Shown here: piece by piece, positions 15,895-46,378 of the stretch
How positions within the stretch are numbered: the stretch's first letter is position 1
How the letters are laid out: each line of letters starts with the position of its first letter
Assembly: GCF_040581405.1 (NCBI RefSeq)
Contig: NZ_CP137157.1
Location: 2,437,001-2,501,000, forward strand
Length of the DNA: 64,000 nt
Source: Komagataeibacter sucrofermentans DSM 15973
GTDB taxonomy: Bacteria > Pseudomonadota > Alphaproteobacteria > Acetobacterales > Acetobacteraceae
Direction: 5' to 3'
The notes under the pieces: model-generated
The model's database searches: none
The model's input: only the letters and a program-made list of their open reading frames with translations
Told to the model about the DNA's origin: nothing
Translations under genes and position numbers: made by a program

Positions 15895-15977
15895 AAAAGT
15901 TTTTTGATGAAGCTTTTTTCCAAAAAGCTTCAAAGCACGCCGCCTTCTTGACAAAAGGCGGCACCCAAAAACTTTTA
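15895..15977. repeat. Two-hairpin palindromic element, full copy
   Basis: The outer arms AAAAGTTTTTT and AAAAACTTTT flank an AAGCTTTTTTCCAAAAAGCTT hairpin-forming stretch (about 15910-15931) and a CGCC-TTCTTGACAAAA-GGCG hairpin followed by CACCC. Unlike most copies it lies between divergent genes (xerC and priA), in what should be promoter territory. It may have displaced or insulated the two promoters. Confidence 0.85.
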
Positions 15978-16086
15978 TCACCTGCTCTCAATGCGTTGTC
16001 TAAAAATCATGCCTGATCGGGGTCATGGATGCGCCATGCCTTACGGATGGACAAGACACAGCCGATGCCTGACGGTAGAAAAACAC

Positions 16087-18336
16087 ATGCCGCATCGCAA
16101 CCCCACCCAGACGGACCTGCTGCCCCCCGCCCCTGACGGGCGCGTGCGGGTCATGCTCACCCTGCCCTTTGCCGGGCCACTGGACTACCTGCTGCCGCCC
16201 CGGCTGGCCGATGCCCGCCCTGGCGATATCGTGACCGTGCCGCTTGGCCGCCGCACCGAAACCGGCGTGATCTGGGATGCCGCCCCCAACCTGCCACCCG
16301 AATTCAGGCCGCCCCCACCCAAGGAAGTGGCCACAAGCCGCCTCAAGCCCGTGGTCGCACGCCTTGACCTGCCGCCCCTGCCCGCGCAGCTGCGCCAGTT
16401 CGTGGACTGGGTGGCCGCCTATACACTCTCGCCGCCGGGCATGGTGCTGGCCATGGCGTTGCGGGCCAATGCGCTGGCCGCCCTGCCCAAACCCGGCACG
16501 GGTTACAGCCCCGCGCCCACATTGCCTGCCGACCTCCGGCTCACGCCCGCCCGCCAGAAGGCGCTCGACATTGCCGCCGCAGGGCCACCGCTGCCCGCCG
16601 CCGAACTTGCCCGCCGGGCGGGCGTGGGGGCTGCCGTCATTCGCGGTCTGGCGCAGGCGGGCGCCCTGCGCGCGGTTGAAATCACGCCCCCGCCGCCCTT
16701 CGCCACACCCGATCCCGCGCATTGCCCGCCCACGCTGGGCGGCAACCAGGCCGAGGTGGCGACCGAGCTGCGGGCAAGGGTGGCGGAAGACAGCTTTTCC
16801 ATCACCCTGCTGGAAGGGGTGACCGGATCAGGCAAGACCGAGATCTACATGGAGGCCATCGCCGCCTGCCTCGAGGCTGGCAAGCAGGCGCTGGTGCTGT
16901 TGCCCGAGATCGCGCTCTCGGCCCAGTGGACCGGGCGCTTTGCCCGCCGCTTTGGCGCGGAACCCGCGCTGTGGCATTCCGATCTTGGGGCAAGGCTTCG
17001 GCGCGTGACGTGGCGGGCGGTGGCCGATGGCACGGCCCGCGTGGTGGTGGGCGCGCGCTCGGCGCTGTTCCTGCCGTTTGACCAGCTCGGGCTGATTATT
17101 GTCGATGAAGAGCACGAGACCGCCTTCAAGCAGGAAGATGGCGTGACCTACCACGCGCGTGACATGGCGGTGGTGCGCGCGCGCATGAGCAAGGCCCCCA
17201 TCGTGCTGGTCTCGGCCACCCCCAGCCTTGAAAGCCTGGCCAATGTGGGGGCGGGCCGCTACCGGCACCTCAAGCTCAATGCCCGCCACGGCAACGCCAC
17301 CATGCCAGCGGTGGAAACGCTGGACATGCGCGCCGACCCACCCGAGCGCGGGCTGTTCCTCTCGCCCGTGCTGACCGGCGCGATCAACGACGCCATAGGC
17401 CGGAGCGAGCAGGCCATGCTGTTCCTCAACCGCCGCGGCTATGCGCCGCTTACGCTGTGCCGCACCTGTGGCCACCGCATGCAGTGCCCCAACTGCACCG
17501 CCTGGCTGGTCGAGCACCGCGCCCGCCATATCCTGACCTGCCACCATTGCGGGTATGACGAGCCCATTCCCCAGACCTGCCCAAAATGCGCCGATGCCGA
17601 CAGCCTGACCCCCATCGGCCCCGGCGTGGAACGCATAACGGAGGAGGCGCGCGCCACCTTCCCCGATGCGCGGATTCTGGTCATGGCGAGCGATACGCTC
17701 AGCGGCCCGGCAGCCACTGCCGCCGCCGTCGAGCGCATTGCCCGGCGCGAGGTGGATCTTGTGATCGGCACCCAGATCGTGGCCAAGGGCTGGCACTTTC
17801 CGCACCTGACGCTTGTGGGCATTGTCGATGCCGATCTCGGCCTTGGCGGGGGTGACCTGCGGGCATCGGAGCGCACGGTGCAGCTCCTGCATCAGGTGGC
17901 AGGGCGTGCGGGCCGCGCGGAGGCGCCGGGCCGGGTGCTGTTGCAGAGCTACGTGCCCGACCACCCGGTCATGCAGGCGCTGGTGTCCGGTGATTTCGGC
18001 AGTTTCATGGAGCAGGAGGCCGAGCAGCGCCGCCCCGGCTTCTGGCCGCCTTATGGCAGGCTTGCCGCCCTGATCGTGAGTGCTGAAACACCGGATGCCG
18101 CCGAACTGACCGCCCGCGCCCTTGGCCAGAACGCGCCGCGGCTTGATGGCGTGCAGGTTCTTGGGCCCGCCCCTGCCCCACTGGCCATTTTGCGCGGTCG
18201 GCACCGCCACCGGCTGCTTTTGCGCGCGCGGCGCAACATTGCGGTGCAGCCCATCATGCGCGAATGGCTCAGCCGCGTGAAACCCGAGCGCGGGGCGCGG
18301 ATTGACGTGGATATTGACCCGGTCTCGTTCCTGTAA
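16087..18336 (+). CDS. priA: Primosomal protein N' (replication restart helicase PriA)
   Basis: PriA binds stalled or D-loop forks and reloads the replicative helicase. The 749-residue product has an N-terminal 3'-DNA-binding domain (about 15-110), a winged-helix linker, and Walker A GVTGSGKT (244-251). DEEH follows at 340-343. Eight cysteines in CxxC pairs between about 458 and 501 form the two zinc sites embedded in the helicase core. C-terminal helicase motifs include GTQIVAKGWHFP and QVAGRAGR. The first Met of the frame is 32 codons upstream; the ATG at 16087 was chosen because conserved sequence begins there. Confidence 0.94.
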   Translation: MPHRNPTQTDLLPPAPDGRVRVMLTLPFAGPLDYLLPPRLADARPGDIVTVPLGRRTETGVIWDAAPNLPPEFRPPPPKEVATSRLKPVVARLDLPPLPAQLRQFVDWVAAYTLSPPGMVLAMALRANALAALPKPGTGYSPAPTLPADLRLTPARQKALDIAAAGPPLPAAELARRAGVGAAVIRGLAQAGALRAVEITPPPPFATPDPAHCPPTLGGNQAEVATELRARVAEDSFSITLLEGVTGSGKTEIYMEAIAACLEAGKQALVLLPEIALSAQWTGRFARRFGAEPALWHSDLGARLRRVTWRAVADGTARVVVGARSALFLPFDQLGLIIVDEEHETAFKQEDGVTYHARDMAVVRARMSKAPIVLVSATPSLESLANVGAGRYRHLKLNARHGNATMPAVETLDMRADPPERGLFLSPVLTGAINDAIGRSEQAMLFLNRRGYAPLTLCRTCGHRMQCPNCTAWLVEHRARHILTCHHCGYDEPIPQTCPKCADADSLTPIGPGVERITEEARATFPDARILVMASDTLSGPAATAAAVERIARREVDLVIGTQIVAKGWHFPHLTLVGIVDADLGLGGGDLRASERTVQLLHQVAGRAGRAEAPGRVLLQSYVPDHPVMQALVSGDFGSFMEQEAEQRRPGFWPPYGRLAALIVSAETPDAAELTARALGQNAPRLDGVQVLGPAPAPLAILRGRHRHRLLLRARRNIAVQPIMREWLSRVKPERGARIDVDIDPVSFL

Positions 18337-18352
18337 GCCGGACAAAACAGAT

Positions 18353-18433
18353 AAAAGTTTTTGGTGAAGCTTTTTTCAAAAAGCTTCGAGGGATGCCGCC
18401 TGTTTGAAAAAAGGCGGCACCCAAAAACGTTTA
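18353..18433. repeat. Two-hairpin palindromic element, full copy
   Basis: It reads AAAAGTTTTTGGTGAAGC, then TTTTTTCAAAAAGCTTCG completing the first hairpin, then GCCGCC-TGTTTGAAAAAA-GGCGGC, then CACCCAAAAACGTTT. It lies between the convergent ends of priA and the flavoprotein gene, where it could terminate both transcripts. Confidence 0.88.
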
Positions 18434-18446
18434 CTTCTTTAAGGCT

Positions 18447-20132
18447 TTACTGCGCCTCCGTGGCATGGGTCATGCCCCGGTGCAGCGCCTGTTCCACATC
18501 CCGCCCCGCAAGCGACAGGGCCACGGCCTCGGCAATGCGGATGCCGTCAATCCCCGCCGAGAGAATGCCCCCGGCATAGCCCGCCCCCTCGCCCGCAGGG
18601 AACAGTCCGCGCAGGTTCTCGCCCTGCCCGTCCACCCCACGCGGAATGCGCAGCGGGGATGATGTGCGCGTCTCCACCCCCGTCATCACCGCATCGCGCA
18701 TGGAAAAGCCCGCCAGCTTGCTGTCAAAATGCGGCAGCGCTTCACGCATGGCCGCCACCGCGAAGTCCGGCAGGCAGGTCGAGAGGTCGGTGGGTGTCAC
18801 GCCGGGGCGGTAGGACGGCACGACAGCGCCAAGCGTGGAGGACGCCACGCCATCAAGGAAGTCGCCCACCGTCTGCGCGGGCGCGAAATAGGCTCCGCCC
18901 CCGGCCTCGAACGCGCGCCGCTCCCATTCGCGCTGGAAGGCGATGCCCGCAAGCGGGCCGCCGGGGTAGTCGCGCTCCGGCGTGACCCCCACCACCAGGC
19001 CTGCATTGGCGTTGCGCTCGGCGCGGGAATACTGGCTCATGCCATTGGTCACCACCTGCCCCACCTCCGACGTGGCGGCCACCACCGTGCCGCCGGGGCA
19101 CATGCAGAAGGAATAGACCGCGCGGCCATTGCTGGCGTGGTGCACCAGCTTGTAATCCGCAGCGCCCAGCAGCGGCACGGCCTCGGGTTGGCCATAGCGG
19201 GCGGTGTTGATGACCGATTGCGGGTGCTCGATGCGCACCCCGATGGAAAACGGCTTGGCCACCATGGCAACGCCTGCCGCATGCAGCGCGCCAAACGTGT
19301 CGCGCGCGCTGTGGCCGATGGCCAGCACCACGTGGCTTGCCGCAATCTCATCCCCATCGGCCAGGCGGAGCGCACGGATGCGCTGGCCGCCCGCGCCGTC
19401 ATCGCCGGTCACGAATTCGGTCACATGCGCGCCAAAGCGGTATTCGCCGCCCAGCGCCTCGATCTCGGCGCGGATATGCTCGACCATCGACACCAGCCGG
19501 AACGTGCCGATATGCGGGCGCGAGAGGTATTCGATCTCGGGCGGGGCGCCCGCGCGCACGAACTCGGCCAGCACCTTGCGGCCATAATGCCGCGGATCGC
19601 TGACCTGGCTGTACAGCTTGCCATCGGAGAAGGTGCCCGCCCCCCCTTCGCCAAACTGCACGTTGCTCTCGGGGTTGAGGATGGATTTGCGCCACAGGGC
19701 AAACGTATCGACCGTGCGCTCGCGCACCACCTTGCCACGCTCGAGCACCAGCGGGCGCAGGCCCATCTGCGCCAGCACAAGGGCCGCCATCAGCCCGCAT
19801 GGCCCTGCCCCGATCACCACCGGGCGCATGAAGCCGGGCCGGGCGGCAAGGGCCGGGCCATCATCCACCGCAAAACGGTAGGTGGTGTCGGGCGTGGGCA
19901 TGATGTTACGTGCATCTGCATGGGCTGCGAGCACGGCGGCCTCGTCACGCACGGCGCAGTCCACGGTATAGACCAGCATCACGCGGTGCCGGTGGCGGGC
20001 GTCATGGCCACGGCGGAAGATGGTGATGGCTTCGATATCCGCCCGTGCCACGCCCAGCCGCTCGGCCACCGCCTGTTCCAGTGCGGCTTCGTCATGCGCG
20101 ATGGGCAGGCGCAGTTCGGTCAGTCGGATCAT
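18447..20132 (-). CDS. FAD-dependent dehydrogenase (COG2509 type)
   Basis: This 561-residue flavoprotein has an N-terminal ferredoxin-like region (about 1-90) with ARADIEAITIFRRGHDAR, the FAD-binding VIGAGPCGLMAAL around 107-119, and the family block VQFGEGGAGTFSDGKLYSQ around 173-191. The C-terminal FAD contact is AGEGAGYAGGILSAGIDGIRIAE. This matches the large uncharacterised FAD-dependent dehydrogenases of COG2509. The reaction is unknown. ATG at 20132 was chosen over a more upstream frame opening because the conserved MIRLTELRL start is typical. It is a single gene, convergent with priA. Confidence 0.85.
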   Translation of the reverse strand: MIRLTELRLPIAHDEAALEQAVAERLGVARADIEAITIFRRGHDARHRHRVMLVYTVDCAVRDEAAVLAAHADARNIMPTPDTTYRFAVDDGPALAARPGFMRPVVIGAGPCGLMAALVLAQMGLRPLVLERGKVVRERTVDTFALWRKSILNPESNVQFGEGGAGTFSDGKLYSQVSDPRHYGRKVLAEFVRAGAPPEIEYLSRPHIGTFRLVSMVEHIRAEIEALGGEYRFGAHVTEFVTGDDGAGGQRIRALRLADGDEIAASHVVLAIGHSARDTFGALHAAGVAMVAKPFSIGVRIEHPQSVINTARYGQPEAVPLLGAADYKLVHHASNGRAVYSFCMCPGGTVVAATSEVGQVVTNGMSQYSRAERNANAGLVVGVTPERDYPGGPLAGIAFQREWERRAFEAGGGAYFAPAQTVGDFLDGVASSTLGAVVPSYRPGVTPTDLSTCLPDFAVAAMREALPHFDSKLAGFSMRDAVMTGVETRTSSPLRIPRGVDGQGENLRGLFPAGEGAGYAGGILSAGIDGIRIAEAVALSLAGRDVEQALHRGMTHATEAQ

Positions 20133-20269
20133 GGGGGCAGGTTTCCGTGGCTGATGGTGGTGCGGGAGCCATATCACGCCGGGGCGCCGCACAGGAATGT
20201 GCTAAATGCTGGTGACGGGCCGTAACCTTCTGCTAGGAAGGCGGCGATACCCTGCCCCTCCCGATCAAT

Positions 20270-21448
20270 ATGGATTCAGGCCCCATGGGCGACTGCCAGC
20301 ACAACCATGGCGCGAATGGCCATGACCACTCCCATGACCACGCCGCCCCCACACAGGCGCACGGTCCTGCCTGCACCGGCCATGACCATGCGCCCCCCGA
20401 CCAGGAGGCCACCACCAGGCCTGAAGCGGGGCATGACTGCGGCCATGACCATGTGCATGATGCCCATGCCGGCCACGACCACGCCGCCCACGGGCATGAG
20501 GAAGCCTGCGGGCACGACCACGGGCATGGCGGGCTGTTCGGCCACCATCATGTGCACACGCCTGCCTCCTATGGCCGGGCGTTTGCCATCGGCATCGCGC
20601 TCAACCTTGTCTATGTGGTGGGGGAGGCAGTGTGGGGTGTGCGCAGTCATGCGCTCTCGCTGCTGGCCGATGCGGGGCATAACCTGTCCGACGTGCTCGC
20701 ACTTGGGGCCGCGTGGCTGGCCGAGGTGCTCTCGCGCCGCTCGCCCACCACCAATTTCACCTACGGGTGGCGGCGCTCCTCCATCCTCGCGGCCCTTGGC
20801 AATGCCGTGGCCCTGCTGGTGGTGACCGGCGGCATCATGTGGGAAGCCGTGCTGCGGCTGATCCACCCGCACCCGGTCGCGGGCGTTGCGGTGATGGTGG
20901 TGGCCGGAATCGGCATTGTGGTGAACGGGCTGACAGCGCTGCTGTTTGCCAGCGGCGGCAAGAAAGACCTCAACCTGCACGGCGCGTTCCTGCACATGGC
21001 ATCTGACGCGGTGATGGCGCTGGCCGTGGTGGCAGGTGGCGGGCTGATTTTTCTGACCGGCTGGCTGCGCATCGACCCCATCATCTGCCTTGTGGTGTCG
21101 CTATCCATCATTCTCGCCACGTGGTCGCTGCTGCGCGATTCGCTGGACATGGCACTTGACCGCGTGCCGCGTGGCATCGACCCGACCGCTGTCGCCGCCT
21201 TCCTGCGCACGCTGCCCGGCGTGTGCGATCTGCATGACCTGCATATCTGGCCCATCAGCACCACCGAAACCGCGCTAACCGTCCACCTCGTGCGCGCGGC
21301 GGGCGAGCAGGGCCATGCGCCTGATGGCCTGCTGAACCGCGCAGCAGCCGAGTTGCAGGCCCGCTTTGGCATTGTTCACCCCACCTTGCAGATTGAAACC
21401 CTGACCGATGCCGGCCAGTGCATTCTGGCCGAAGCCCACTCCGTCTGA
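20270..21448 (+). CDS. Cation diffusion facilitator with His-rich N-terminus
   Basis: This inner-membrane metal/proton antiporter of the CDF family exports Zn2+ or related ions. The first ~95 of 392 residues are rich in His, Asp and Cys (repeated HDH, HGH and CGHDH), a likely cytoplasmic metal buffer. Six transmembrane helices follow. The transport-site pairs are visible as DAGHNLSD (about 134-141) and HMASDAVM (about 243-250), the HxxxD arrangement of zinc-type CDFs. A cytoplasmic C-terminal domain (about 300-392) includes LHDLHIWPIS. It is followed after 13 bases by a second CDF gene. Zinc is the most likely substrate, with cobalt or cadmium possible. Confidence 0.9.
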   Translation: MDSGPMGDCQHNHGANGHDHSHDHAAPTQAHGPACTGHDHAPPDQEATTRPEAGHDCGHDHVHDAHAGHDHAAHGHEEACGHDHGHGGLFGHHHVHTPASYGRAFAIGIALNLVYVVGEAVWGVRSHALSLLADAGHNLSDVLALGAAWLAEVLSRRSPTTNFTYGWRRSSILAALGNAVALLVVTGGIMWEAVLRLIHPHPVAGVAVMVVAGIGIVVNGLTALLFASGGKKDLNLHGAFLHMASDAVMALAVVAGGGLIFLTGWLRIDPIICLVVSLSIILATWSLLRDSLDMALDRVPRGIDPTAVAAFLRTLPGVCDLHDLHIWPISTTETALTVHLVRAAGEQGHAPDGLLNRAAAELQARFGIVHPTLQIETLTDAGQCILAEAHSV

Positions 21449-21461
21449 TCGCAAGGACTCC

Positions 21462-22373
21462 GTGTTCAGCATGTTTGCCCGTACCGACCCCAAGATCCGC
21501 GCGGCCTGGTGCAGCGTTGTCGTCAGCCTGATCGCGCTGGGCATGAAATATGCCGCGTGGCGGGTGACAGACAGCATCGCGCTGTATTCCGATGCCATCG
21601 AGACCATCATCAACGTGGTCTCCGCCGTGGCCGGGCTGTGGGCGCTGCGGGTGGCCAGCCTGCCGCCAGACCACAACCACACCTATGGCCACTACAAGGC
21701 CGAATACCTCTCCGCCGTGGCGGAAGGGGTGCTGGTGGTCATTACCGCCATCACCATCGCGCATGAGGCATGGATCGGCTTCCAGCACATGCGCGCGCCG
21801 CAGGATTCGCTGCTGGGCATCGCGCTCAACGGGGGCGCTGGGGCGCTCAACCTGGGGTGGGGGCTGTTCCTGCTGCGGCTGGGGCGCGCGCGCCATTCAC
21901 CCGCCCTGGTGGCCAGCGGGCACCATGTGCTGTCCGATGTGTGGACATCGGTGGTGCTGATCACGGGGTTCGTGCTGATTCCGCTCACCGGGTTTTTGTG
22001 GCTCGACCCCCTGCTCGCCGCCCTGATTGCGGTGAACGTGCTGCGCACGGGATGGGAGATGATGCGCGCCTCTATCGCGGGGCTGATGGACGAGGCCCCC
22101 AATTCCGAGACACTGGGCGATATCCGTTCCATCATCTCGCAGACCGCCACCGGCGCGATGGAGGCGCATGACATCCGCGCGCGCATCGTTGGCGCCATGA
22201 CGTTTATCGAGTTTCATCTTGTCGTGCCCGGTGCCATGAGCGTAGAGGAAGCCCACCACATATGCGACCGGGTGGAAGATGGCCTGCGCGCGGGGCTGGG
22301 TGATGCGCTGATCAACATTCATGTCGAGCCTGAGCGCAAGGCCAAGCATACCGGCGTGCTGGTGCTGCCCTGA
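21462..22373 (+). CDS. Second cation diffusion facilitator (FieF-like)
   Basis: This CDF protein of about 303 residues has the first metal site in YSDAIETIINVV (DAxxT/D type) and the second in HHVLSDVWTS, with six predicted helices and a C-terminal cytoplasmic domain ending INIHVEPE. It lacks the His-rich tail of its neighbour. The DAIET first site is closer to FieF/iron-zinc transporters than to the HxxxD type, so the two genes probably differ in metal preference. The start is uncertain: GTG at 21462 is 4 bases after AAGGA, while ATG at 21471 is 13 bases after it. It is co-directional with the first CDF gene, with a 13-base gap. Confidence 0.86.
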   Translation: MFSMFARTDPKIRAAWCSVVVSLIALGMKYAAWRVTDSIALYSDAIETIINVVSAVAGLWALRVASLPPDHNHTYGHYKAEYLSAVAEGVLVVITAITIAHEAWIGFQHMRAPQDSLLGIALNGGAGALNLGWGLFLLRLGRARHSPALVASGHHVLSDVWTSVVLITGFVLIPLTGFLWLDPLLAALIAVNVLRTGWEMMRASIAGLMDEAPNSETLGDIRSIISQTATGAMEAHDIRARIVGAMTFIEFHLVVPGAMSVEEAHHICDRVEDGLRAGLGDALINIHVEPERKAKHTGVLVLP

Positions 22374-22505
22374 CCTGGCGGAAGGGGCGGATATTCTGCC
22401 AATGACCGCCTGACCTGCGATAAATACCACCCTTGCCGGGCAACCGGATGGCTTAAACCCGGTTTTACCCGCTTCAGGGCTGTTGCTGAAAGTACGTTAC
22501 CGGGC

Positions 22506-23873
22506 ATGCGAACCGACCTTACCGAGATACGCCGGAAACACATGCGCCACCTGCGCCGGTCCGCGCGGATCACCACCGAGCAGTGGCGGCGCAAGATCGC
22601 GTGCTGGGCTGCCGCCGTGGTGGTGGGCGTGGTGGCAGTGGGCTTTGCCGTGGCTGCTGATGCGGCGGCAAGCCTGCGCACGCACATCATCGCGTTCAAC
22701 CCGTGGCTGATGCTGGTGCTGACGCCGGGCGGGCTTGCACTTTCAACGTGGCTGACGCGCACCTGGTTTCGTGGCGCGCAGGGCAGCGGCATACCGCAGA
22801 CCATTGCAACGCTGCATCTTGAAAATTTCGCCATTGTCGACCGGCTGCTGTCGCTGCGGGTGGCGGCGGGCAAGATCGTGCTGACCTCGCTGGGGCTGGT
22901 GGCGGGCGCGTCCATCGGGCGCGAGGGGCCGAGCGTGCAGATCGGTGCGGCCATCATGCATGCGTGCGGGCGGTGGCTCAACCTGTCCACCATCAGCATG
23001 CGGCGCGGGCTGATCCTGGCGGGCGGGGCCTCGGGGGTTTCGGCCGCGTTCAACACGCCGCTGGCGGGTATCGTGTTCGCCATCGAGGAACTCAGCCACT
23101 CGTTTGAGCAGCGCACCAGCGGCACCATGCTCACCGGCGTAATCCTGTCGGGTGTGACGGCCATCGCCCTTGTGGGCAATTACAGCTATTTCGGCCATAC
23201 GGATGTGGTCGTGCCCATTGGCATAAGCTGGATTGCGGTGCCGACCTGCGGCATTCTGGGCGGCATTGGCGGCGGCGTGTTCTCGGCCATTCTCATCCGG
23301 GCCACGCGTGGCCTGCCCGGCGGGCTGGGGCGCTTTGCCAAGGGCCGACCGGTGGCGTTCGCTGCCGTGTGCGGGCTTTTGCTGGCCATACTGGGCATTG
23401 CCTCGGGCGGGATCACCTATGGCACCGGCTATTATCAGGCACATGAAATCATTGACGGGCGCACGCATTATCCCGCCTCGTTCTTCATTCTCAAATTCAT
23501 CGCCACCATCATTTCCTACTGCTCGGGCATTCCAGGCGGGCTGTTTGCGCCTTCGCTGGCCATCGGGGCAGGGTTTGGCGGGTGGGTGGCGCAGTTCCTG
23601 CCGCACACCACGCCGGGCGCCGTGGTGCTGCTGGGCACCGTGGCCTATTTCTCCGCCGTGGTGCAGTCACCGCTGACGGCCTCGGTCATTGTCATGGAAA
23701 TGTGCGATAACCAGCAGGTTACGCTGGCCCTGCTGGCCACGTCTTTCCTGGCTTATGGCGTGTCGCGCATGATCTGCTCGCAGCCGCTCTATGCCGCCCT
23801 GGCCGAGGCGTTTCTTGATGGCATGGCCTCTGCGCCCAAGCCCCCGTCTGTGGCAAAAACTGCCGTAAAATAA
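22506..23873 (+). CDS. ClC-family chloride channel or H+/Cl- antiporter
   Basis: This 455-residue membrane protein has all three selectivity motifs: GSGIP at 93-97, GREGP at 138-142 and GGLFAP at about 343-348. Glu140 is the gating glutamate, so proton-coupled exchange is possible. The proton-glutamate position of E. coli ClcA was not aligned. No CBS domains follow. Members of this group support acid tolerance, which would suit an acid-producing bacterium, but that role is inferred. It ends at a palindromic element that separates it from a convergent glycosyltransferase. Confidence 0.9.
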   Translation: MRTDLTEIRRKHMRHLRRSARITTEQWRRKIACWAAAVVVGVVAVGFAVAADAAASLRTHIIAFNPWLMLVLTPGGLALSTWLTRTWFRGAQGSGIPQTIATLHLENFAIVDRLLSLRVAAGKIVLTSLGLVAGASIGREGPSVQIGAAIMHACGRWLNLSTISMRRGLILAGGASGVSAAFNTPLAGIVFAIEELSHSFEQRTSGTMLTGVILSGVTAIALVGNYSYFGHTDVVVPIGISWIAVPTCGILGGIGGGVFSAILIRATRGLPGGLGRFAKGRPVAFAAVCGLLLAILGIASGGITYGTGYYQAHEIIDGRTHYPASFFILKFIATIISYCSGIPGGLFAPSLAIGAGFGGWVAQFLPHTTPGAVVLLGTVAYFSAVVQSPLTASVIVMEMCDNQQVTLALLATSFLAYGVSRMICSQPLYAALAEAFLDGMASAPKPPSVAKTAVK

Positions 23874-23874
23874 C

Positions 23875-23956
23875 AAAAGTTTTTGGTGAAGCTTTTTTCA
23901 AAAAGCTTTGAAAGACGCCGCCTTTTTGAAAAAAGGCGGCACCCAAAAACTTTTAT
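23875..23956. repeat. Two-hairpin palindromic element, best full copy
   Basis: The outer arms AAAAGTTTTTGG and CCAAAAACTTTT enclose two hairpins: AAGCTTTTTTCAAAAAGCTT and GCCGCC-TTTTTGAAAAAA-GGCGGC. The element starts two bases after the ClC stop and its last bases include the stop codon of the convergent glycosyltransferase gene (TAA on the minus strand, 23953-23955). Confidence 0.9.
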
Positions 23957-24990: not shown

Positions 24991-25013
24991 GCGTTTTTCC
25001 GCCCCTTGCTGCT

Positions 25014-27073: not shown

Positions 27074-27174
27074 GGAACCTCCAGTGTTTTGGCGTGAGCC
27101 TTGTGTGCCCAGATATAGGACGGCGCACCGTCCTCTCCCATACCCGCAGGGCATAAAAACGCAAAAACGCGGCT

Positions 27175-34170: not shown

Positions 34171-34282
34171 TTCCCCCGCCTGCCTGTTCCGGGCGGTTTC
34201 ATCAACGGCGGCTAACATGCTAGAGGCTGGTCCGCGCCGGGGCGGCCCGGCCAGCGACGGACCTTACAGCGCGGAACAGATC

Positions 34283-35530: not shown

Positions 35531-35533
35531 ACC

Positions 35534-36010: not shown

Positions 36011-36072
36011 GGAAGCTTTTTTCAAAAAGCCTTGAAGAACACTGCCGGTTGAAAAAACGGCACCCGAAACCG
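36010..36072. repeat. Partial two-hairpin palindromic element
   Basis: This copy has GGAAGCTTTTTTCAAAAAGCC (first hairpin) and a shortened second hairpin, TGCCG-GTTGAAAAAAC-GGCA, then CCCGAAACC. The left outer arm is missing, and AAGGAAGC replaces TGGTGAAGC. It lies between the convergent DUF4186 and Rieske genes. Confidence 0.75.
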
Positions 36073-36079
36073 TCCATCA

Positions 36080-36421: not shown

Positions 36422-36536
36422 GCTCCCGCTGGTTTGCGGTTATCATTTTACGCACCGGGCGTGTGTCGTCTATCCTGCGGGGCACTTTCCGCAGGCCTGC
36501 GGCACGCCGCCTGCCTTTTACAGGATATGATTACGC

Positions 36537-38335: not shown

Positions 38336-38353
38336 AAAAGTATTGGGAAGATA

Positions 38354-38412
38354 ATAAAAGTTTTTGGGTGCCGCCTTTTTTTCAAAAAGGCGGCGTTCCC
38401 TGAAGCTTTTAC
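38354..38412. repeat. Two-hairpin palindromic element, truncated at one side
   Basis: It reads AAAAGTTTTTGGGTGCC, the hairpin GCCGCC-TTTTTTTCAAAAA-GGCGGC, then GTTCCCTGAAGCTTTTAC. The second hairpin is cut after the first arm, so only one full hairpin remains. It lies between a plus-strand gene and a convergent glycosyltransferase gene that starts its last codon at 38413. Confidence 0.82.
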
Positions 38413-39534
38413 TCAGGTCAGCCTGCCCGTAAGTAATGCCGTGACACGGGTCATGACCGCCGCCTGCGTGTACCGCGCAAGGGCGCGGCCCCGCCCGGCT
38501 TCGCCCATGCGCACGCGCAGGGCGGCATCATCGACCAGCCGCGCAAGGGCGGTGGCAAGCTCCACAGCATCGCCCGGCCTGACCAGCAGCCCGGTCTCTC
38601 CCGCCCCGACCTGCTCACGCGGGCCACGAATGGTTGTGGAGACAACCGGCAGGCCACACAGCATGGCCTCGATCACGCTCATCGGCAGCCCCTCGAAATG
38701 GCTGGGCAGGGTAAAGATATCCGCTGCCGCCATCAGGGCCGCCACGTCCTCGCGATAACCCAGAAAGACCAGCCGCGCCCCCAGCCTTGCGCGGGCTGTG
38801 GCAAAACACGCGGCCAGATCCACGCCCCGGTCACTCGGCAGGCGTTCGCCCACGATCCACAGCACCGCGTTATCGGGCACGCGCTCCATCGCCGCCAGCA
38901 GTTCAGGGTAGCCCTTGCCCCGCACCAGCCTTGATACGGCAAGGATGACCACCTGTCCCTCCCCCACACCCAGCGCCGCGCGCAGCCGGGCGCGGGCCTG
39001 CGGGTCGGGGTGGAAGAGGGCCGGGTCGCGCCCGTTGCCAATGGCGGTGGGGTGGCGGTGGATGCCCAGCCTGCGGGCATCGCGCGCTTCTTCCTCCGAT
39101 ACGGTCAGGTAGATGTCGGTCACGCGCCCGGCCAGCCATTCCAGCACCAGCGCCGCAACGCGCCGCAACTTTGATCCGGGCTGGTTGAACAGGAAACCGT
39201 GGCAGGTATAGGCAATGCGCGGCACGCCACACCACCGGGCCGCAAACCGTGCCAGCAGGCCACTTATGGGCATGTGGGCATGCACCATGTCTGGCTTTTC
39301 CGCCCGGATGAGGCGCACCAGCGCCCGCCATGCCCGCCACTGCGCCAGCGGGGAAAGCGTGCGCGACATGGGCACGCACACCACGCGCAGCCCATCGGCA
39401 CGCAATTGCGCCAGCAACGGGCCATCAGCGCATATGCCTGTTACATCATGCCCTTCGGCACGCAGCGCCTGCATGAGGGGGAAGAGAAACTGCCGCATCG
39501 AGAAATCAACATTCGTGATTTCAAGAATCTTCAT
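38413..39534 (-). CDS. Glycosyltransferase family 4
   Basis: This 373-residue GT-B glycosyltransferase has the N-terminal domain MVHAHMPISGLLARFAAR and TCHGFLFNQPGSK. Its donor domain has ILAVSRLVRGKGYPELLAAM and LPSHFEGLPMSVIEAMLCGLPVV, with the two glutamates of the E-x(7)-E motif. The pattern resembles enzymes that add GlcNAc, GalNAc or Gal to undecaprenyl-linked sugars, but the sugar cannot be fixed. It overlaps the heparinase-like gene upstream by four bases, so the two act from one transcript, plausibly on the same polysaccharide. Confidence 0.88.
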   Translation of the reverse strand: MKILEITNVDFSMRQFLFPLMQALRAEGHDVTGICADGPLLAQLRADGLRVVCVPMSRTLSPLAQWRAWRALVRLIRAEKPDMVHAHMPISGLLARFAARWCGVPRIAYTCHGFLFNQPGSKLRRVAALVLEWLAGRVTDIYLTVSEEEARDARRLGIHRHPTAIGNGRDPALFHPDPQARARLRAALGVGEGQVVILAVSRLVRGKGYPELLAAMERVPDNAVLWIVGERLPSDRGVDLAACFATARARLGARLVFLGYREDVAALMAAADIFTLPSHFEGLPMSVIEAMLCGLPVVSTTIRGPREQVGAGETGLLVRPGDAVELATALARLVDDAALRVRMGEAGRGRALARYTQAAVMTRVTALLTGRLT

Positions 39535-41228
39535 GTCAGCAGGAGCAGTTTCTCACGCTTCAGCCCCCAGCGCACCACCTGCCGCACCTTGCCGGGCGGC
39601 ACATCACCGAGCGGCGTGCTGCCCTGCGGCGGCGGGGCCGCGGGCTCCACGCCAGCCTCGTGGCCGCCTTCCGCCGTCCTGGCCGCGGGTTCCACCTGCA
39701 CCACAAGCTGGAGCGTGCGGCAGGGCACCTGCCCGCCGGAATAGACGCTCTCCTCGATCGAGACCACGCCCCCTTCGGCACGGAAGCGCCAGTGCTGCTC
39801 GCCCGCAGTCAGCAGGATGGAGCCATCAAGCGCATCAACCGCCATGACTGAAGGGTGCAGGTGAAGCCGCAGCGCGAAGGCCAGTTCACGCTCGCCCTCC
39901 AGCGTTTCCTCGCCGCGCAGGATCTCGCCATCGGCGGCAAGATAGAGCCTGCGGTAATACGTTGCCCCGGCGGAAGCGTGGTAGCCATCATGCGACAGGT
40001 TGAGCCAGTGCGCCCCTTCGGCCACCGCATGCTCCACCCCCACATGGGCGGGGCGGCGGCGAACCGTGCCGTCCTCGCCAAACTCGGCGGATGACATGCC
40101 CTCCACCGTCACGACAGAATGCGCCGCCGTCTGCCGCAGGGCTTCCTGCCATGCGGGCAGCACGCCGCCACCGCAATTGACGATAAGACGCTGGCGCGCG
40201 CACGAGAACTCGAACGACAGCGTGCCCGCATGGGCATTGTGGTCGAACGGGGCCGGAGCGGGAATACCCACATCCACCAGAAGCAGCGAGCGCACGGCCT
40301 GCATGCGCACGAACCCGCCATCGGGCATGGCGCTGGCCACGACCCGCGTGCGCGTGGCCTGCGACAGCACCATGTCAATCAGGGCGGTGCTCCGCTCATG
40401 GCTGCCGTTAAACAGCGCCAGCCCCCCATCGCCATGCCGCATGGCGCGCAGCACCGGGCTCATCTTGTCCAGCGCCAGGGCAACCGAATGTGGCAGCGCA
40501 TGCTGCACCGCCTGCATCATGGCCCGCATCTCGGCCAGTTCACGCAGGGCACGGAGCTGTACTTCAGGGCTGCGCTCGATGTGCCAGCCATCGGGCAGGA
40601 TCTGGCTTTCCACCACGTTGTCGATATAGCGGCGGTAGCGGGTCAGGAAGCCGGTATATTCCGGCATGGCCACGGCCACGGCCAGCAGCCCCTTGAGTGC
40701 AGCCAGCCCCTGCCAGCCCGGCTGTTCGGGCGGCATGAGGGCGGCGATCATGCGCCCTTCCACCAGAATGCGGGCCATGAGGCGCTGGCGGAACGCATCA
40801 CTGGCGGAGGCAGCAAAGAAATCGTAATGCCCCAGCCATGCCGCGACCCGCGCGCCGATCACGCCGCATTCCAGCGCCATCGGGCTTTGGGAGGGATGAT
40901 GCAGCCAGTCATCCACCAGGGCGCGCGCCTTGAGCCGCGCGGCATCGGTGCCCACGGCGCGCAGGTCGCGCAGCCAGCGGAAACTGAGCAGCCCTTCACG
41001 GAAGGCAGGCTCGAATTCCGGCGAATCCCACTGCCCCGGCCCCACGGGGTGGGTATAGCCCGCCCATGTCAGGCTGCCCCGCGCCATGCGCGCCCCTGCG
41101 GCGGAATTGCCCGGCCAGAGGTCACGCACGTTATGGACAGGGGCGGCAGGCAGGTATTTGCCATCACCAAAAAGGGGAAGGCGTGCGAGGGAGACGCGCA
41201 TGCCGCGCATGATGCGGGTCAGCGCCAT
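39531..41228 (-). CDS. Heparinase II/III family protein
   Basis: This protein of about 565 residues belongs to the heparinase II/III-like family of polysaccharide lyases and relatives. It has an N-terminal alpha/alpha toroid (about 60-310, DLWPGNSAAGARMARGSL, WLHHPSQSPMAL, IERSPEVQLRAL) and a C-terminal beta-sandwich (about 320-540, HDGYHASAGATYYRRLYL). No signal peptide is seen, unlike secreted lyases. Most Alphaproteobacteria carry one copy next to rsmB and rpe, as here, so it is part of a core locus rather than a foraging gene. The substrate is unknown. GTG at 41234 is an alternative start. Confidence 0.87.
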   Translation of the reverse strand: MALTRIMRGMRVSLARLPLFGDGKYLPAAPVHNVRDLWPGNSAAGARMARGSLTWAGYTHPVGPGQWDSPEFEPAFREGLLSFRWLRDLRAVGTDAARLKARALVDDWLHHPSQSPMALECGVIGARVAAWLGHYDFFAASASDAFRQRLMARILVEGRMIAALMPPEQPGWQGLAALKGLLAVAVAMPEYTGFLTRYRRYIDNVVESQILPDGWHIERSPEVQLRALRELAEMRAMMQAVQHALPHSVALALDKMSPVLRAMRHGDGGLALFNGSHERSTALIDMVLSQATRTRVVASAMPDGGFVRMQAVRSLLLVDVGIPAPAPFDHNAHAGTLSFEFSCARQRLIVNCGGGVLPAWQEALRQTAAHSVVTVEGMSSAEFGEDGTVRRRPAHVGVEHAVAEGAHWLNLSHDGYHASAGATYYRRLYLAADGEILRGEETLEGERELAFALRLHLHPSVMAVDALDGSILLTAGEQHWRFRAEGGVVSIEESVYSGGQVPCRTLQLVVQVEPAARTAEGGHEAGVEPAAPPPQGSTPLGDVPPGKVRQVVRWGLKREKLLLLT

Positions 41229-41265
41229 GGGCACCCACCGCCACTATGGATCGGTAAGCCCTGCC

Positions 41266-41943
41266 TCACGCCGGGCTATGCGCCCCGCTGCGCAGCGCCC
41301 TGATGGCTTCGCCATAATCGGGCTGCCCATAGACGGACGTGCCCGCGATCAGCACATCGGCCCCCGCGGCCACCGCCAGCGGGGCAGTCGCGGCAGTGAT
41401 GCCACCATCGACGCCAATGCGGATGTCGCGCCCGGTGGCATCGGCCATGCGGCGCAGGGTTTCGATCTTGCGAAGCTGGCTGGTCAGGAATTTCTGGCCG
41501 CCAAAGCCGGGGTTGACGGTCATGACAAGGATCATGTCCACCAGGTCGAGCACCTCGCCCACGGCCTCGGGCGGGGTGGCGGGGCAGATGGCGACACCCG
41601 GCCTGACCCCATGGTCGCGCACATGCTGCAGCGAGCGGTGCGTGTGCGGCCCGGCCTCGACATGCAGGTGGATGTGGTCGGCCCCCGCCTTGGCAAACGC
41701 CTCGATGTAGGGATCGACCGGCGCAATCATGAGATGCACGTCAAACGGAAGTTTTGATTTGGGGCGCAGGGCCTTGATCAGTTGCGGCCCCATGGAGAGG
41801 TTGGGCACGAAATGCCCGTCCATCACGTCCAGATGCAGCCAGTCGGCGCCAGCGGTTTCAACCGCCGCGACTTCCTCCGCCGCGCGTGAGAAATCAGCCG
41901 CCAGCAGGCTCGGCGCGATAAGGGGGGTGTTCAGAGCAGCCAT
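41266..41943 (-). CDS. rpe: Ribulose-phosphate 3-epimerase
   Basis: Rpe interconverts ribulose 5-phosphate and xylulose 5-phosphate in the pentose phosphate pathway, the main sugar route of acetic acid bacteria. The 225-residue TIM barrel has the metal ligands in HLDVMDGHFVPN (His and Asp), DVHLMI (His) and the catalytic Asp in VDGGI. Phosphate-binding MTVNPGFGGQKF is intact. It lies between rsmB and the heparinase gene, all leftward. Confidence 0.95.
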   Translation of the reverse strand: MAALNTPLIAPSLLAADFSRAAEEVAAVETAGADWLHLDVMDGHFVPNLSMGPQLIKALRPKSKLPFDVHLMIAPVDPYIEAFAKAGADHIHLHVEAGPHTHRSLQHVRDHGVRPGVAICPATPPEAVGEVLDLVDMILVMTVNPGFGGQKFLTSQLRKIETLRRMADATGRDIRIGVDGGITAATAPLAVAAGADVLIAGTSVYGQPDYGEAIRALRSGAHSPA

Positions 41944-42041
41944 GCCTGTTTTTTAACAGAAATCCCTGCCCGACGCCAACCTTTCATCACACCCCCCCGC
42001 GGTAATGTGTCTGGCCGCCCGGCGGGGGCGTGAAGCCCCCT

Positions 42042-43388
42042 TCAGCCCCGGCGGAACCGCGCGGCAAAGAAGCCGTCCATCCCCCCATGATCGGCCAGCA
42101 TGCCCGGATGGGTGCGCAGCCAGCCCTCAGGCGTGCGGGCCTGCGGCAGGAAGGCCAGTTCCTCGGGCGTGAACGGATCGGGGATCAGGCCCATGGCCTG
42201 AGCCGCGCGGGCGCGCTGCTCGCCTTCCTCGGGCTGGAGCGAGCACACGGCATAGACCAGGCGGCCGCCGGGGCGCAGCATGTCGCGGGCGGCGGCCAGC
42301 AGGCGGTCCTGCCCCTCGGTCATGGTGGCGATGTCACGCGGGCGCTTGATCCACATGGCATCGGGGTGGCGGCGGATGGTGCCAGTCGCCGAGCACGGCG
42401 CATCGAGCAGGATGGCATCGAGCGGGGCTTCGGGCTTCCATGTGGCGGCATCGGCGTGGATCACCTTCACATCCGCCAGCCCCAGCCGGGCGAGGTTGGC
42501 GCGCAGGCGCTCAAGCCTGCGGCCCTCGCGCTCGATGGCGAATACCTCCGCCCCCGCGCAGGCCAGTTGCGCGGTCTTGCCGCCGGGAGCCGCGCACAGA
42601 TCGGCCACGCGCTCGCCCTTCGTCACGTTCAGCAGGCGCGCGGGCAGCGTTGCCGCCATGTCCTGCACCCAGAACGTGCCCTCGGCAAAGCCGGGCAGTT
42701 CGGCCACCTTGACCGTGCCCGCCGCGAAACGCACGCTGCCATTGGGCATGACCTCGCCCCCGGGCGGGGCCTCGCAGCCGGGCTTGATGGTCAGGTCGAG
42801 CGGCGGCTCGTGGCCCAGCGCGCTGGCAATGGGACGGGCCAGCCGGCCCCAGGACTGCCACAGCCACGCCGGCACATCGAGCCGGGGCTGGTCCAGCCCT
42901 TCCAGCGCTTCAGCCCCGCCACCTGCCACCCGGCGCAGCACGGCGTTGACCAGCCCCGCAAACGGCACCAGCCCCCGCCTGCGCGCCAGCGCCACCGAGG
43001 TGGCCACGGCGGCATGCGGCGGCGTGTCAAGAAACAGCAGTTGCGCCACGCCAATGAGCAGCACCACGCGCACCGGCTCGGGCGGCTCGCGCTTGAGGAA
43101 GGGGGCCAGCACCTCGTTGGCCGTGCCCATGTGGCGCAGCACGGTGGCGGCCAGCCGGTGGGCGGCGGCGCGGTCGCGCGGCTCGGCGGTGCGGGCGGCG
43201 GCAGAATGCTCGAGCGATGTATCGAGCATGCGGCGATGGACGATCACCCCTTCAACGATATCGAAAGCAATGTCGCGCGTGGGGTCAGGGGCGACCTTGC
43301 CGCCACGCCGGTCGGGGCGGCCCGCGCGATTGCGGCGGGCATCGGGGCGGCCATCGGGGCGCGACGACGGGGACGGGGGAGACTTCAT
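42042..43388 (-). CDS. RsmB-like rRNA (cytosine-5) methyltransferase
   Basis: This enzyme is predicted to methylate C5 of a cytosine in 16S rRNA with S-adenosylmethionine. In 448 residues, an N-terminal NusB-like helical domain (about 35-165) precedes the Rossmann methyltransferase (AAPGGKTAQLACAG for SAM, DAPCSATGTIRRHPD with the release Cys, and VYAVCSLQPEEGE with the catalytic Cys). The N-terminus is Arg/Pro-rich and may start later than 43388. It probably begins the leftward run with rpe, heparinase-like and glycosyltransferase genes. Confidence 0.9.
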   Translation of the reverse strand: MKSPPSPSSRPDGRPDARRNRAGRPDRRGGKVAPDPTRDIAFDIVEGVIVHRRMLDTSLEHSAAARTAEPRDRAAAHRLAATVLRHMGTANEVLAPFLKREPPEPVRVVLLIGVAQLLFLDTPPHAAVATSVALARRRGLVPFAGLVNAVLRRVAGGGAEALEGLDQPRLDVPAWLWQSWGRLARPIASALGHEPPLDLTIKPGCEAPPGGEVMPNGSVRFAAGTVKVAELPGFAEGTFWVQDMAATLPARLLNVTKGERVADLCAAPGGKTAQLACAGAEVFAIEREGRRLERLRANLARLGLADVKVIHADAATWKPEAPLDAILLDAPCSATGTIRRHPDAMWIKRPRDIATMTEGQDRLLAAARDMLRPGGRLVYAVCSLQPEEGEQRARAAQAMGLIPDPFTPEELAFLPQARTPEGWLRTHPGMLADHGGMDGFFAARFRRG

Positions 43389-43475
43389 GTAATCCTGACC
43401 TGCAAATGCGACCCTTCACGACGCGACGGCGCCTTGGGGCTTGACCGGGCCGCTATTCAGGCCAAGCCTAGGGCC

Positions 43476-44159
43476 ATGTCAACATCCGCATCCATAGCAC
43501 AGGCCCTGGGCGATATCCGCACCCGCATTGCAACGAGCGCGCGCGAAGCAGGGCGCGACCCCGCCAGCGTAGGGCTGGTGGCGGTGTCGAAATTCCATCC
43601 GCAGTCCAGCGTCATCGCAGCGCTCGAGGCAGGCCAGCGCCTGTTTGGCGAGAACCGCGTGCAGGAAGCCGCCGCCAAATTCCCTGAACTGCGCGAGCGC
43701 TTTCCCGATCTTAGGCTGCACATCATTGGCGGGCTCCAGACCAACAAGGCGCTGGAAGCGGTCAAAATCGCGGACATGATCGAAAGCCTCGACCGCCCTG
43801 CCCTGTCGGACGCACTGGCACGGGCTGCGGATAAGGCGGGCCGCCTGCCCGGACTGCTGGTGCAGGTGAACACCGGCGATGAAAGCCAGAAATCGGGCGT
43901 GAGGCTGGAAGAGGCAGACGCCTTCATCACCCACAGCATGACCCGCTTTGGCGCGAGCGTGCGCGGGCTGATGTGCATCCCGCCGCATGATGCCGACCCC
44001 ACGCCGCATTTCCGCACGCTTGCAGGCATGGCGGCGCGCCACGGGCTGCCGGTGGTGTCGATGGGCATGTCGGCTGATTTCGAGACCGCGATTGCCTGCG
44101 GGGCCACGCTGGTGCGGGTGGGCAGCGCCATTTTCGGGGCCCGTCCCGCCCACGCCTGA
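43476..44159 (+). CDS. YggS-family pyridoxal phosphate homeostasis protein
   Basis: This 227-residue TIM-barrel protein binds PLP on Lys39 (AVSKFHP), with phosphate contacts in the GxGxxLVRVGSAIFG segment at the C-terminus. YggS/PLPBP proteins have no known enzymatic activity and buffer PLP, with knock-on effects on amino acid pools. ATG at 43476 is the first with homology. An open frame continues far upstream but there it is only the antisense of rsmB. It is divergent from rsmB with an 87-base gap. Confidence 0.93.
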   Translation: MSTSASIAQALGDIRTRIATSAREAGRDPASVGLVAVSKFHPQSSVIAALEAGQRLFGENRVQEAAAKFPELRERFPDLRLHIIGGLQTNKALEAVKIADMIESLDRPALSDALARAADKAGRLPGLLVQVNTGDESQKSGVRLEEADAFITHSMTRFGASVRGLMCIPPHDADPTPHFRTLAGMAARHGLPVVSMGMSADFETAIACGATLVRVGSAIFGARPAHA

Positions 44160-44285
44160 ACGGGGTGGAATGGCACCCGAGCACACAGGGGCCTTGCTGC
44201 GCATGGGGCGAGGCGGTAATGCGAAACTATCCGGTTGCGATGTGATGCCGGTTTTCAGTCTTCATTGCCGCGGAGCCGTCACGAC

Positions 44286-46286
44286 ATGACGCAACCCACG
44301 GGGCCTGTTGCCCCCGGATCCTCAACGACGCCGGATGGCGGCGCGCACTCCGCGCCTGCCGCACAGCAGGCCAATGCCGCGCCCAAGATTACCGAATACG
44401 GCGCCGACCAGCACGAGCATGCGGCAAACCCGGTGGGCTTTGCCGCCCTGCTCAGCGTGCTCGGCGTGGTGTTTGGCGATATCGGCACCAGCCCGATCTA
44501 CGCCCTGCGCTCGACCATCATGGTCGTATCGCAGCACCACAGGATCGAGCCGTGGGAAATACTGGGCGTGCTCAGCCTCATCATCTGGTCGCTGCTGCTG
44601 ATCGTGACGGTGAAATACGTCATCCTGATCATGCGCGCCGACCATAATGGCGAGGGCGGGATCATCTCGCTCATGTCGCTCGCCCAGCGCGTCGCACCGA
44701 GCAACCGCATGCGCATCGCGCTCGGCATGGTGGGAATCGGCGGCGCGTGCCTGTTCTTTGGCGATGGCATGATCACGCCCGCCATTTCCGTGCTCTCGGC
44801 GGTGGAAGGGCTTGAGGTCAGTTTCCCCGCGGCCCATGACCTGGTCATTCCCATCGCACTCATGGTGCTGGTGGGGCTGTTCTCGGTGCAGTGCTACGGC
44901 ACGGGCAAGGTGGGCACCATATTCGGCCCCATCATGCTGGTGTGGTTCAGCCTGCTGGGCATACTCGGCGGGCTTGAAATCCTGCACCACCCCAAGGTGC
45001 TGCTGGCCATATCGCCCACCTATGCGGTGCAGTTCATCATCTATCACGGGTGGCTGTCGTTCATTGCCCTTGGCTCGGTGGTGCTGTCGGTCACGGGTGC
45101 TGAGGCGCTTTATGCCGATATGGGGCATTTTGGCCGCCAGCCCATCCGCTATGCGTGGCTGTTCTGCGTGCTGCCGTGCCTGGCGCTGAACTATCTGGGG
45201 CAGGGCGCACTCATCATCTCCGAGCCCAAGGCGCTCGAGAACCCCTTCTTCCTGCTCGGCCCGCACTGGATGCAGGTGCCGATGATCATCCTGTCCACCA
45301 TGGCTACGGTGATTGCCAGCCAGGCGGGTATTTCGGGCGGATTCTCGCTGTGCCGCCAGATCATCCAGCTTGGCTACCTGCCGCGCCTGCGCGTGACCCA
45401 CACCAATGCGGAGGAAGAGGGCCAGATCTACCTGCCCGAGTTCAACCGCTTCCTCATGGTGGGGGCGCTGCTGCTGGTGCTGGCCTTCCGCAGTTCCGAT
45501 GCGCTGGCCTCGGCCTACGGCATTGCGGTGACGGGCACGTTCATGTGCACCTGCGTGCTGGCCATGGTGGTGTTCCGCAGGCTGTATCACTGGTCGCGCC
45601 CTGCGGCGGTTGCCACATTTGGTGGCTTCTTCCTGCTTGATACGACGTTCTTCGCCTCAAACGCGCTCAAGATCCCGCAGGGCGGCTGGGTGCCGGTGCT
45701 GCTGGGCATCGTGCTGACGCTGATGATGACGACGTGGAAAAAAGGCCGCCAGCTCATCATGAACCGGCAGAAGCAGGACAGCATGCCGATGAACTCGTTC
45801 CTGGCCCGCCTGCCGCAGTCGCGCATCATCCGCGTGCCGGGCACGGCGGTGTACATGACCGGCAACCCCGAATTCGTGCCTGCCTGCCTGCTGCACAACC
45901 TCAAGCACAACAAGGTGCTGCACGACCACGTGCTGTTCGTAACCGTGCAGACGCTTGACCAGCCCGAGGCCGATCACGGCCACCGCGTGGCGTTGCAGGA
46001 ACTGGCGCCCGACATTTACCGCATCATCCTGCGCTACGGCTTTATGGAAATGCCCAACCTGCCCCGCGCGCTCGAAGACCTGAAGGCCAGCGGGCTGGAC
46101 TTCGATGCGCTACAGGCCTCCTACTTCACCAGTCGCGAGCTTCTGGTGCGCTCCTCGGTGCCCAAGCTCTCGCGCTGGCGCATGTCGCTGTTCCTGTTCA
46201 TGGCGCGCAATGCGACGCCAGCCACCGAGTTCTTCCGCATTCCGCCCGACCGCGTGGTGGAGCTGGGTGTGCGGCTGGCGATCTGA
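44286..46286 (+). CDS. kup: Potassium uptake protein Kup
   Basis: This K+/H+ symporter of the KUP/HAK/KT family is inner-membrane. In 666 residues, a Gln/Ala/His-rich cytoplasmic start (1-50) is followed by [15 protein letters not shown], the signature of TM1, then about twelve helices. [16 protein letters not shown], the LYADMGHFG segment and NYLGQGALI are conserved. A long cytoplasmic tail ends [18 protein letters not shown]. Kup works at low pH where other K+ systems fail, which fits an acid-producing organism. A palindromic element begins six bases after the stop. Confidence 0.95.
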
Positions 46287-46291
46287 TAAAA

Positions 46292-46378
46292 AATAAAAGT
46301 TTTTGGGTGCCGCCTTTTTTCAAAAAGGCGGCATTCTTTTTGAAGTTTTTTGAAAAAAGCTTCACCAAAAACTTTTTA
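46292..46378. repeat. Two-hairpin palindromic element, full copy, between co-directional genes
   Basis: In reverse orientation relative to the copy at 23.9 kb, it reads AAAAGTTTTTGGGTGCCGCC, then TTTTTTCAAAAAGGCGGC, then a second hairpin (TTGAAGTTTTTTGAAAAAA with GCTTCACC) and CAAAAACTTTTT. It lies after kup and 53 bases before the hemW start, so hemW is read through it or has its own promoter just after it. Confidence 0.88.

Follow-up and report, generated by a model that had tools for sequence, protein, structure and literature searches.

A Y-shaped palindromic repeat behind gene ends in Komagataeibacter, a candidate terminator with a probable MITE-like past

Within a 64,000-nucleotide stretch of the Komagataeibacter sucrofermentans DSM 15973 genome (NZ_CP137157.1, positions 2,437,001 to 2,501,000; hereafter the window), short palindromic elements recur between genes, raising the question of what such a repeat does at these positions and how it came to occupy them. 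An earlier note made from the letters alone counted eight full or partial copies in these 64 kb, and all eight were matched by repeat search and by reading the letters directly. From the comparisons described below, we lean towards the view that the 82-nt element is what remains of an old MITE-like repeat, its core, and that it probably works today as a module at gene ends, in the manner of an intrinsic terminator. The window has no Rfam match at gathering score.

A full copy has the layout AAAAGTTTTTGG-T-GAAGCTTTTTTCAAAAAGCTTC-linker-GCCGCCTTTTTGAAAAAAGGCGGC-AC-CCAAAAACTTTT, in which an outer stem encloses two hairpins when either strand is folded. The three-way junction proposed in the earlier note is indeed predicted for both orientations, at -34.0 and -33.2 kcal/mol (z -5.4 and -4.7 relative to shuffled sequences, with 0/200 and 1/200 shuffles folding equally well). 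Our reference is copy 4 (23875..23954, plus strand, 105.5 bits), all of whose parts are given on the plus strand. Its left outer arm AAAAGTTTTTGG (23875..23886) was read from the sequence and is paired in the fold, which also supplies hairpin 1 of the AAGCTT type (23888..23909), hairpin 2 with its GCCGCC/GGCGGC stem (23917..23940) and the right outer arm CCAAAAACTTTT (23943..23954). Between the hairpins lies a purine-rich linker (23910..23916), the opposite strand of which is a U-rich tract behind the GC hairpin. The element strand is defined here as the one on which the AAGCTT hairpin comes first; in the B orientation, the GC hairpin is transcribed first.

Six of the eight copies lie in convergent gaps, as had been claimed, provided that the Gly/Tyr-rich frame at 2-265 is a gene. 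Copy 1 (338..418, minus strand, 66.6 bits) separates that frame from a convergent 601-aa ORF that reads like 2-isopropylmalate synthase. Copy 3 (18353..18432, plus strand, 96.7 bits) lies behind priA, and copy 4 between a glycosyltransferase gene and a ClcA-like gene whose score falls below the NCBIfam cut-off. The other three are degenerate: copy 5 (36012..36064, plus strand, 28.1 bits) has lost its outer arms, copy 6 (38356..38437, minus strand, 29.8 bits) is likewise decayed, and copy 8 (50319..50354, minus strand) is a remnant, reduced to one arm plus half of a hairpin, which was seen by repeat search and by eye and missed by the covariance model, and which has fuller counterparts at the corresponding site of some relatives (L061, L063 and L070). 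The two remaining copies are copy 2 (15895..15976, plus strand, 85.4 bits), before priA in the only divergent gap of the window to hold one, and copy 7 (46295..46376, minus strand, 100.1 bits), between the co-directional kup and hemW-like genes.

The earlier note made the number of copies elsewhere in the genome a test of its terminator idea, and a covariance model built from 31 copies (R1; E<=0.01) returned at least 149 matches, 148 of them on the 2.95-Mb chromosome, among the best 150 of 2274 candidates scored. A number this high at that threshold excludes chance. A fuller search of 40 stretches of this genome added 18 further matches, mostly weak, to the 116 already listed, giving 134 and leaving out at least three weaker ones (E 0.016-0.099); the genome total is thus likely to be roughly 170.

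If the folded shape matters, its stems should bear the marks of conservation. Among 94 paralogues, we counted 38 compensatory cells, in which both sides of a pair had changed, compared with 14.3+-3.2 in shuffled alignments (0/300 as high), and 204 unpaired cells compared with 237.5. Among 72 orthologous copies shared by our genome (G000) and a second species (G017), there were 56 double changes against 26.8 expected, 18 of which keep the pair, along with 134 single changes that keep a pair and 216 that make or break one. Substitution was lowest in the hairpin stems (0.095 and 0.111) and rose through the outer stem (0.149) and the loops (0.162) to 0.22 at the linker and the remaining unpaired positions. 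In G238 (L043), which belongs to another genus, hairpin 1 has GCAGC/GCTGC instead of GAAGC/GCTTC, and hairpin 2 exceeds ours by one pair. The tight first set of copies gave little covariation above shuffles. Judging from these alignments, the Y structure is kept in part by paired changes, which can also arise by template switching in quasi-palindromes, without selection.

Placement relative to genes was assessed in 40 stretches of 20 kb from our genome, picked for copy density as were 40 stretches from G017, using gene calls from a purpose-written script. In the 40 own stretches, the element occupied 75 of 109 convergent gene pairs, 53 of 472 co-directional pairs and 3 of 108 divergent pairs (convergent versus the rest, Fisher p about 2e-38). 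The predicted excess in convergent gaps is therefore strong, and it is accompanied by near absence from divergent ones. By gap, the 134 matches comprise 76 convergent, 53 co-directional and 3 divergent copies; the remaining two fall within a called gene and at the edge of a stretch. The median distance from stop codon to element is 13 nt, 51 of the 53 co-directional copies are closer to the stop of the upstream gene, and 26 of 205 gene ends, as called, reach into the core. Novacetimonas stretches gave similar occupancies (35/51 convergent, 28/217 co-directional, 5/49 divergent). Occupancy is lower outside copy-rich stretches: five stretches at the terminus (70 kb, 7 convergent pairs) contained one weak match.

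Such a distribution has more than one possible source, as insertion limited to places that spare genes and promoters would likewise pile copies up behind genes. Under one rival reading, which we hold to be unlikely, the element is a selfish or neutral MITE remnant whose copies survive where they are harmless, behind genes, and whose structure reflects mobility or is a by-product and has nothing to do with termination. The many decayed copies favour it; against it stands the occupation of 69% of convergent pairs in Komagataeibacter and in Novacetimonas stretches alike.

The two strands of the element differ in a way that bears on its role. Among 78 copies with both hairpins recognised, the GC-rich hairpin is followed by a U-rich tract (at least 4 T in 9 nt) in 69 on strand B and in 0 on strand A. 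The element is consequently asymmetric as an intrinsic terminator, and the bidirectional terminator suggested by the earlier note stands in part: the many copies and the convergent excess bear it out, but the U-rich tract is found on one strand only. At co-directional ends, 36 of 53 copies present the B orientation to the upstream gene (p=0.013). Pooling with Novacetimonas gave 54/81 (p=0.004), and adding Acetobacter musti gave 71/113; A. musti alone is even, at 17 to 15. A U-rich tract in 69/78 copies together with an orientation preference would be unexpected of a mere MITE remnant. A loose TTGANA/TNNNAT pattern, considered as an outward promoter, occurs in 18/78 copies on strand B and 1/78 on strand A.

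The terminator reading that we prefer would work as follows. In the B orientation, the RNA would form GCCGCC...GGCGGC and then a U-rich tract (GUUCUUU, for example), as intrinsic terminators ordinarily do. In the opposite orientation, the two inner hairpins would pull the outer arms together, and the resulting Y, ending in UUUUAU, might slow or stop RNA polymerase or shield the 3' end, more weakly. A single copy in a convergent gap could then end both transcripts, and separate them where the genes may once have overlapped, and the quasi-symmetry of the element would make flipping tolerable.

Ordinary hairpin-plus-T terminators outside the element are rare in our sample, which would make the element the commonest terminator-like structure there. 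For gaps of at least 60, they were found at 2/52 co-directional ends with the element and 30/201 without it, and at 12/146 convergent ends with it and 7/36 without it. Convergent ends that lack the element hardly have terminators at all (8/68), and termination there may consequently be Rho-dependent. This scarcity also suits a second rival, to which we give a small probability: that the element is a REP-like 3'-end stabiliser, with transcripts ending elsewhere through Rho and being trimmed back to a Y structure that blocks 3' exonucleases. Such a stabiliser would share the placement described above and would profit from a fold of -33 to -34 kcal/mol in both directions, but the U-tract of strand B, with its orientation preference, speaks against it.

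REP repeats are short palindromes of high copy number that lie behind genes and are rare in promoter regions, and our element shares these traits, among them its extragenic placement at gene 3' ends, with REP/BIME systems that include a RAYT. It differs from them in having two hairpins within an outer stem, A+T-rich outer arms, inversion in place and no RAYT match. A RAYT-associated REP was considered as a candidate and rejected: the Y1 transposase domain PF01797 had no match in any of the 19 genomes of the genus, with a control search positive in E. coli and four others of 14. This absence argues against the REP family, not against a function in 3'-end stabilisation. Among bacterial MITEs, of which Correia and NEMIS are examples, the likeness lies in the roughly 260-bp A. 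musti unit described below, with terminal inverted repeats near AGAGRCTGTTTCAAAAGCCT; the difference is that the Komagataeibacter and Novacetimonas stretches searched show essentially the inner core only. Plastid small inversions at hairpins, in which short inverted repeats bound a segment that turns round without moving, resemble what we observe here, but our element is bacterial and a high-copy repeat.

Most E. coli inverted repeats directly behind stop codons (arms of at least 8 bp, short spacers) are parts of intrinsic terminators (PMC6060812). Intrinsic bidirectional terminators share with our element the A-tract, stem, T-tract layout and, on strand B, the GC hairpin with its U-rich tract; they differ in that the element has a high copy number with one consensus, a branched structure, a history of mobility and a U-tract behind the GC hairpin on one strand. 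The uptake-signal terminators of Neisseria and Pasteurellaceae, which are pairs of short signals (about 9-11 nt; PMC1852404), are likewise a dispersed repeat co-opted as terminator hairpins, but the element is one Y-shaped unit. The titles and abstracts of the literature searched contain no description of it, and six literal motifs were found in 0 papers. As far as their main texts go, RepRanger (PMC12306157) does not mention Acetobacter, Gluconacetobacter or Komagataeibacter, and PMC2267715 does not mention Acetobacter, Gluconacetobacter or Gluconobacter. In function the element probably resembles a terminator or a REP-type element of 3' ends, and it either stems from a MITE or is carried by one.

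Its distribution among relatives is patchy. All 19 genomes of the genus have matches, from 39 to at least 150 each. In a search of 22 genomes, at least 150 matches each were found in A. musti, N. maltaceti, N. entanii and N. cocois, 78 in K. melaceti and one weak match in Gluconobacter frateurii; the other 16, including four Gluconacetobacter and four other Acetobacter, were without a match. We counted the record titled Gluconacetobacter entanii (L118) as Novacetimonas entanii because, by matching coordinates, its genome falls in genus g73 with N. maltaceti and N. cocois. In a sample of the family, 48 of 299 genomes had a match, many of them weak. A phage origin was rejected, as the phages searched had none, and plasmids carried few copies, in 6 records, all from Komagataeibacter or Novacetimonas.

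In A. musti, the core lies inside a consensus unit of about 260 bp with terminal inverted repeats near AGAGRCTGTTTCAAAAGCCT / CTCAGAGACTGTTTCAAAAGCCT and, judged by its size, no coding capacity, features of a MITE that we found in this species alone. Among 64 sampled cores, 30 had both flanks, 28 had one and 6 had none, and flank matches adjoined a core in 42/50 cases on the left and 46/47 on the right. In 20 A. musti stretches examined for an autonomous partner with the same ends, 9 of 10 end pairs spaced 0.6-3 kb apart enclose cores, and the tenth is an IS-interrupted unit. The core is reversed in 5 of 40 aligned units. As to target-site duplications, some units have TA-like ends, which vary, and the empty sites are strongly diverged. 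In this species, a spreading MITE with terminal inverted repeats would carry the core along. A selfish or neutral remnant is favoured by several features of A. musti: at least 150 copies with terminal inverted repeats, copies nearest the consensus (at least 95 bits in 38 of 65 sampled, versus 25 of 134 in our own sample), and a weaker convergent bias, with 25/53 convergent pairs occupied next to 30/172 co-directional and 5/52 divergent ones. Cores here lie a median of 77 nt from stop codons, which, like the even orientation, speaks against the terminator reading.

Against that reading, the core has been kept in Komagataeibacter and Novacetimonas while the long MITE flanks were not found there. 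Using the A. musti flanks, nhmmer returned nothing at E<0.01 in our genome, Novacetimonas or other Acetobacter sequence, and one match in G017 (E=0.008). In a seed-based search, a related left flank turned up in 21 of 300 flanks (own, G017 and Novacetimonas) and in 1 of 300 controls; the five seeds had been chosen by eye within these very data, four are themselves among the 300, and the own and G017 flanks include orthologues. In the own sample, the left-end motif scored higher near the core than far from it (p=4e-14) and outscored its reversed-motif control (p=1e-5), which it did not exceed in Novacetimonas (p=0.67). An inner right motif beat its reversed form in both (p=2e-4 in the own sample and 1e-3 in Novacetimonas). 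Faint remnants of MITE ends thus flank some Komagataeibacter and Novacetimonas copies, which suggests that the unit was once longer in these genera and that the core alone was kept.

Comparison of orthologous sites between relatives revealed empty sites, which the earlier note had suggested looking for, at two loci, 23875 and kup-hemW. The first is filled in 7 of 18 aligned genomes of the genus, those most alike in this region (92-94% to the window). In all seven, 76-79 bp lie between the convergent genes, each of which stops at an edge of the element; this bears out the remark that a copy supplies a stop codon to the gene it abuts. In all 11 genomes with an empty site, the 3' ends of the two genes overlap by 18-24 bp; two of these genomes carry a copy in the next gap along. 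At kup-hemW, 9 of 11 Komagataeibacter loci hold the element, K. melaceti has an empty site and in K. diospyri an IS end interrupts it; the four Novacetimonas and four Gluconacetobacter loci examined are empty. In the window, the element (within 46286-46431) parts kup from the hemW-like gene, which in relatives nearly touch, and a strong terminator between these co-directional genes would need a new hemW promoter. Inspection by eye points to a possible TTG start for hemW in some species. Empty sites and patchy distribution also favour the remnant reading, and with the A. musti MITE they uphold the mobile origin that the earlier note suspected; its REP-like alternative, taken strictly, is not supported, as none of the 19 genus genomes matched PF01797.

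Between our genome and G017, the element is kept at many orthologous sites, in flanks that are about 93% identical between the two species. We mapped 94 of the 134 own sites in G017, in density-picked stretches that favour shared copies. When orientations were compared, 63 sites had the same orientation, 6 were flipped, 15 were empty or remnant and 2 were unclear. N. entanii and N. maltaceti differed by 5 flipped sites versus 9 or 11 unflipped, depending on the side counted. At one flipped site, the flanks are about 97% identical and the core alone is reversed, and the core thus inverts in place between relatives. No clean recent insertion was seen among ten sites with length differences between G000 and G017: six are partial core deletions in G017, two keep both cores, one is badly aligned and one shows a further decayed copy in G017, where two more sites have extra DNA. 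At L207:16450 versus L225, G017 carries an additional decayed copy about 150 bp away. At L186:18299 versus L221, it has extra DNA and a second copy where our genome has a single one, which looks as though copies had recombined and so removed or added a stretch. Insertion sequences with similar ends sit in core hairpin 2 in two genera, at L068:12098 (K. diospyri) and L271:1267-2085 (A. musti), and may target the palindrome; the latter encodes IS4/5-type transposase pieces (PF13340, DDE_Tnp_1).

A bolder reading, which we hold to be less likely than not, is that a MITE spreading horizontally gave two genera of acetic acid bacteria their main terminator: the core would have been retained at the majority of convergent gene ends as the transposon parts decayed, would create gene ends with stop codons where genes had overlapped, and would flip so as to exchange terminator strength for its neighbours. 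Were this true, most convergent gene ends in large chromosome parts of industrial cellulose producers would come from one domesticated mobile element. It would also offer a ready terminator part for Komagataeibacter engineering, and a natural experiment on terminator birth with countable in-place inversion at bacterial palindromes. Beyond the window, the in-place inversion, the patchy spread, the A. musti MITE and the origin-centred distribution are new here, and why repeats cluster around the origin becomes directly testable.

That distribution was seen in two genomes. In G000, the GC skew switches at 2.90-2.92 Mb and the circular mean of the listed copies is 2.907 Mb; by quarters of distance from the switch, the matches listed number 71, 42, 23 and 12. 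In G017, the listed copies average 1.169 Mb and the skew switches at 1.16-1.20 Mb. Among the matches listed, centring on the origin has p about 1e-11 in each. We dropped dnaA as an origin marker, the skew switch being about 0.95 Mb from it; dnaA lies at 1,960,316 in G000 and near 0.2 kb in G017, about 0.95-1.2 Mb from the skew-inferred origin. Density centred on the skew switch in two genomes would fit a chromosome-scale DNA function, such as binding of a nucleoid protein or gyrase around the origin, an idea to which we attach very little credence: placement tracks gene ends, strand relative to replication has no bias (77 to 71), and low G+C in two of the five terminus stretches means that younger DNA there may explain the gradient. 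These two, L307 and L308 (G000 C1, 1.35 and 1.44 Mb; G+C 0.50 and 0.59), one of them with little called coding, are perhaps accessory DNA.

The window contains two further kinds of repeat. A 274-nt direct repeat, 81% identical between 58542-58815 and 60776-61049, involves a large minus-strand gene and its smaller neighbour, and imperfect repeats at 5949-6655 within a 982-aa ORF read as Ala/Glu-rich codons.
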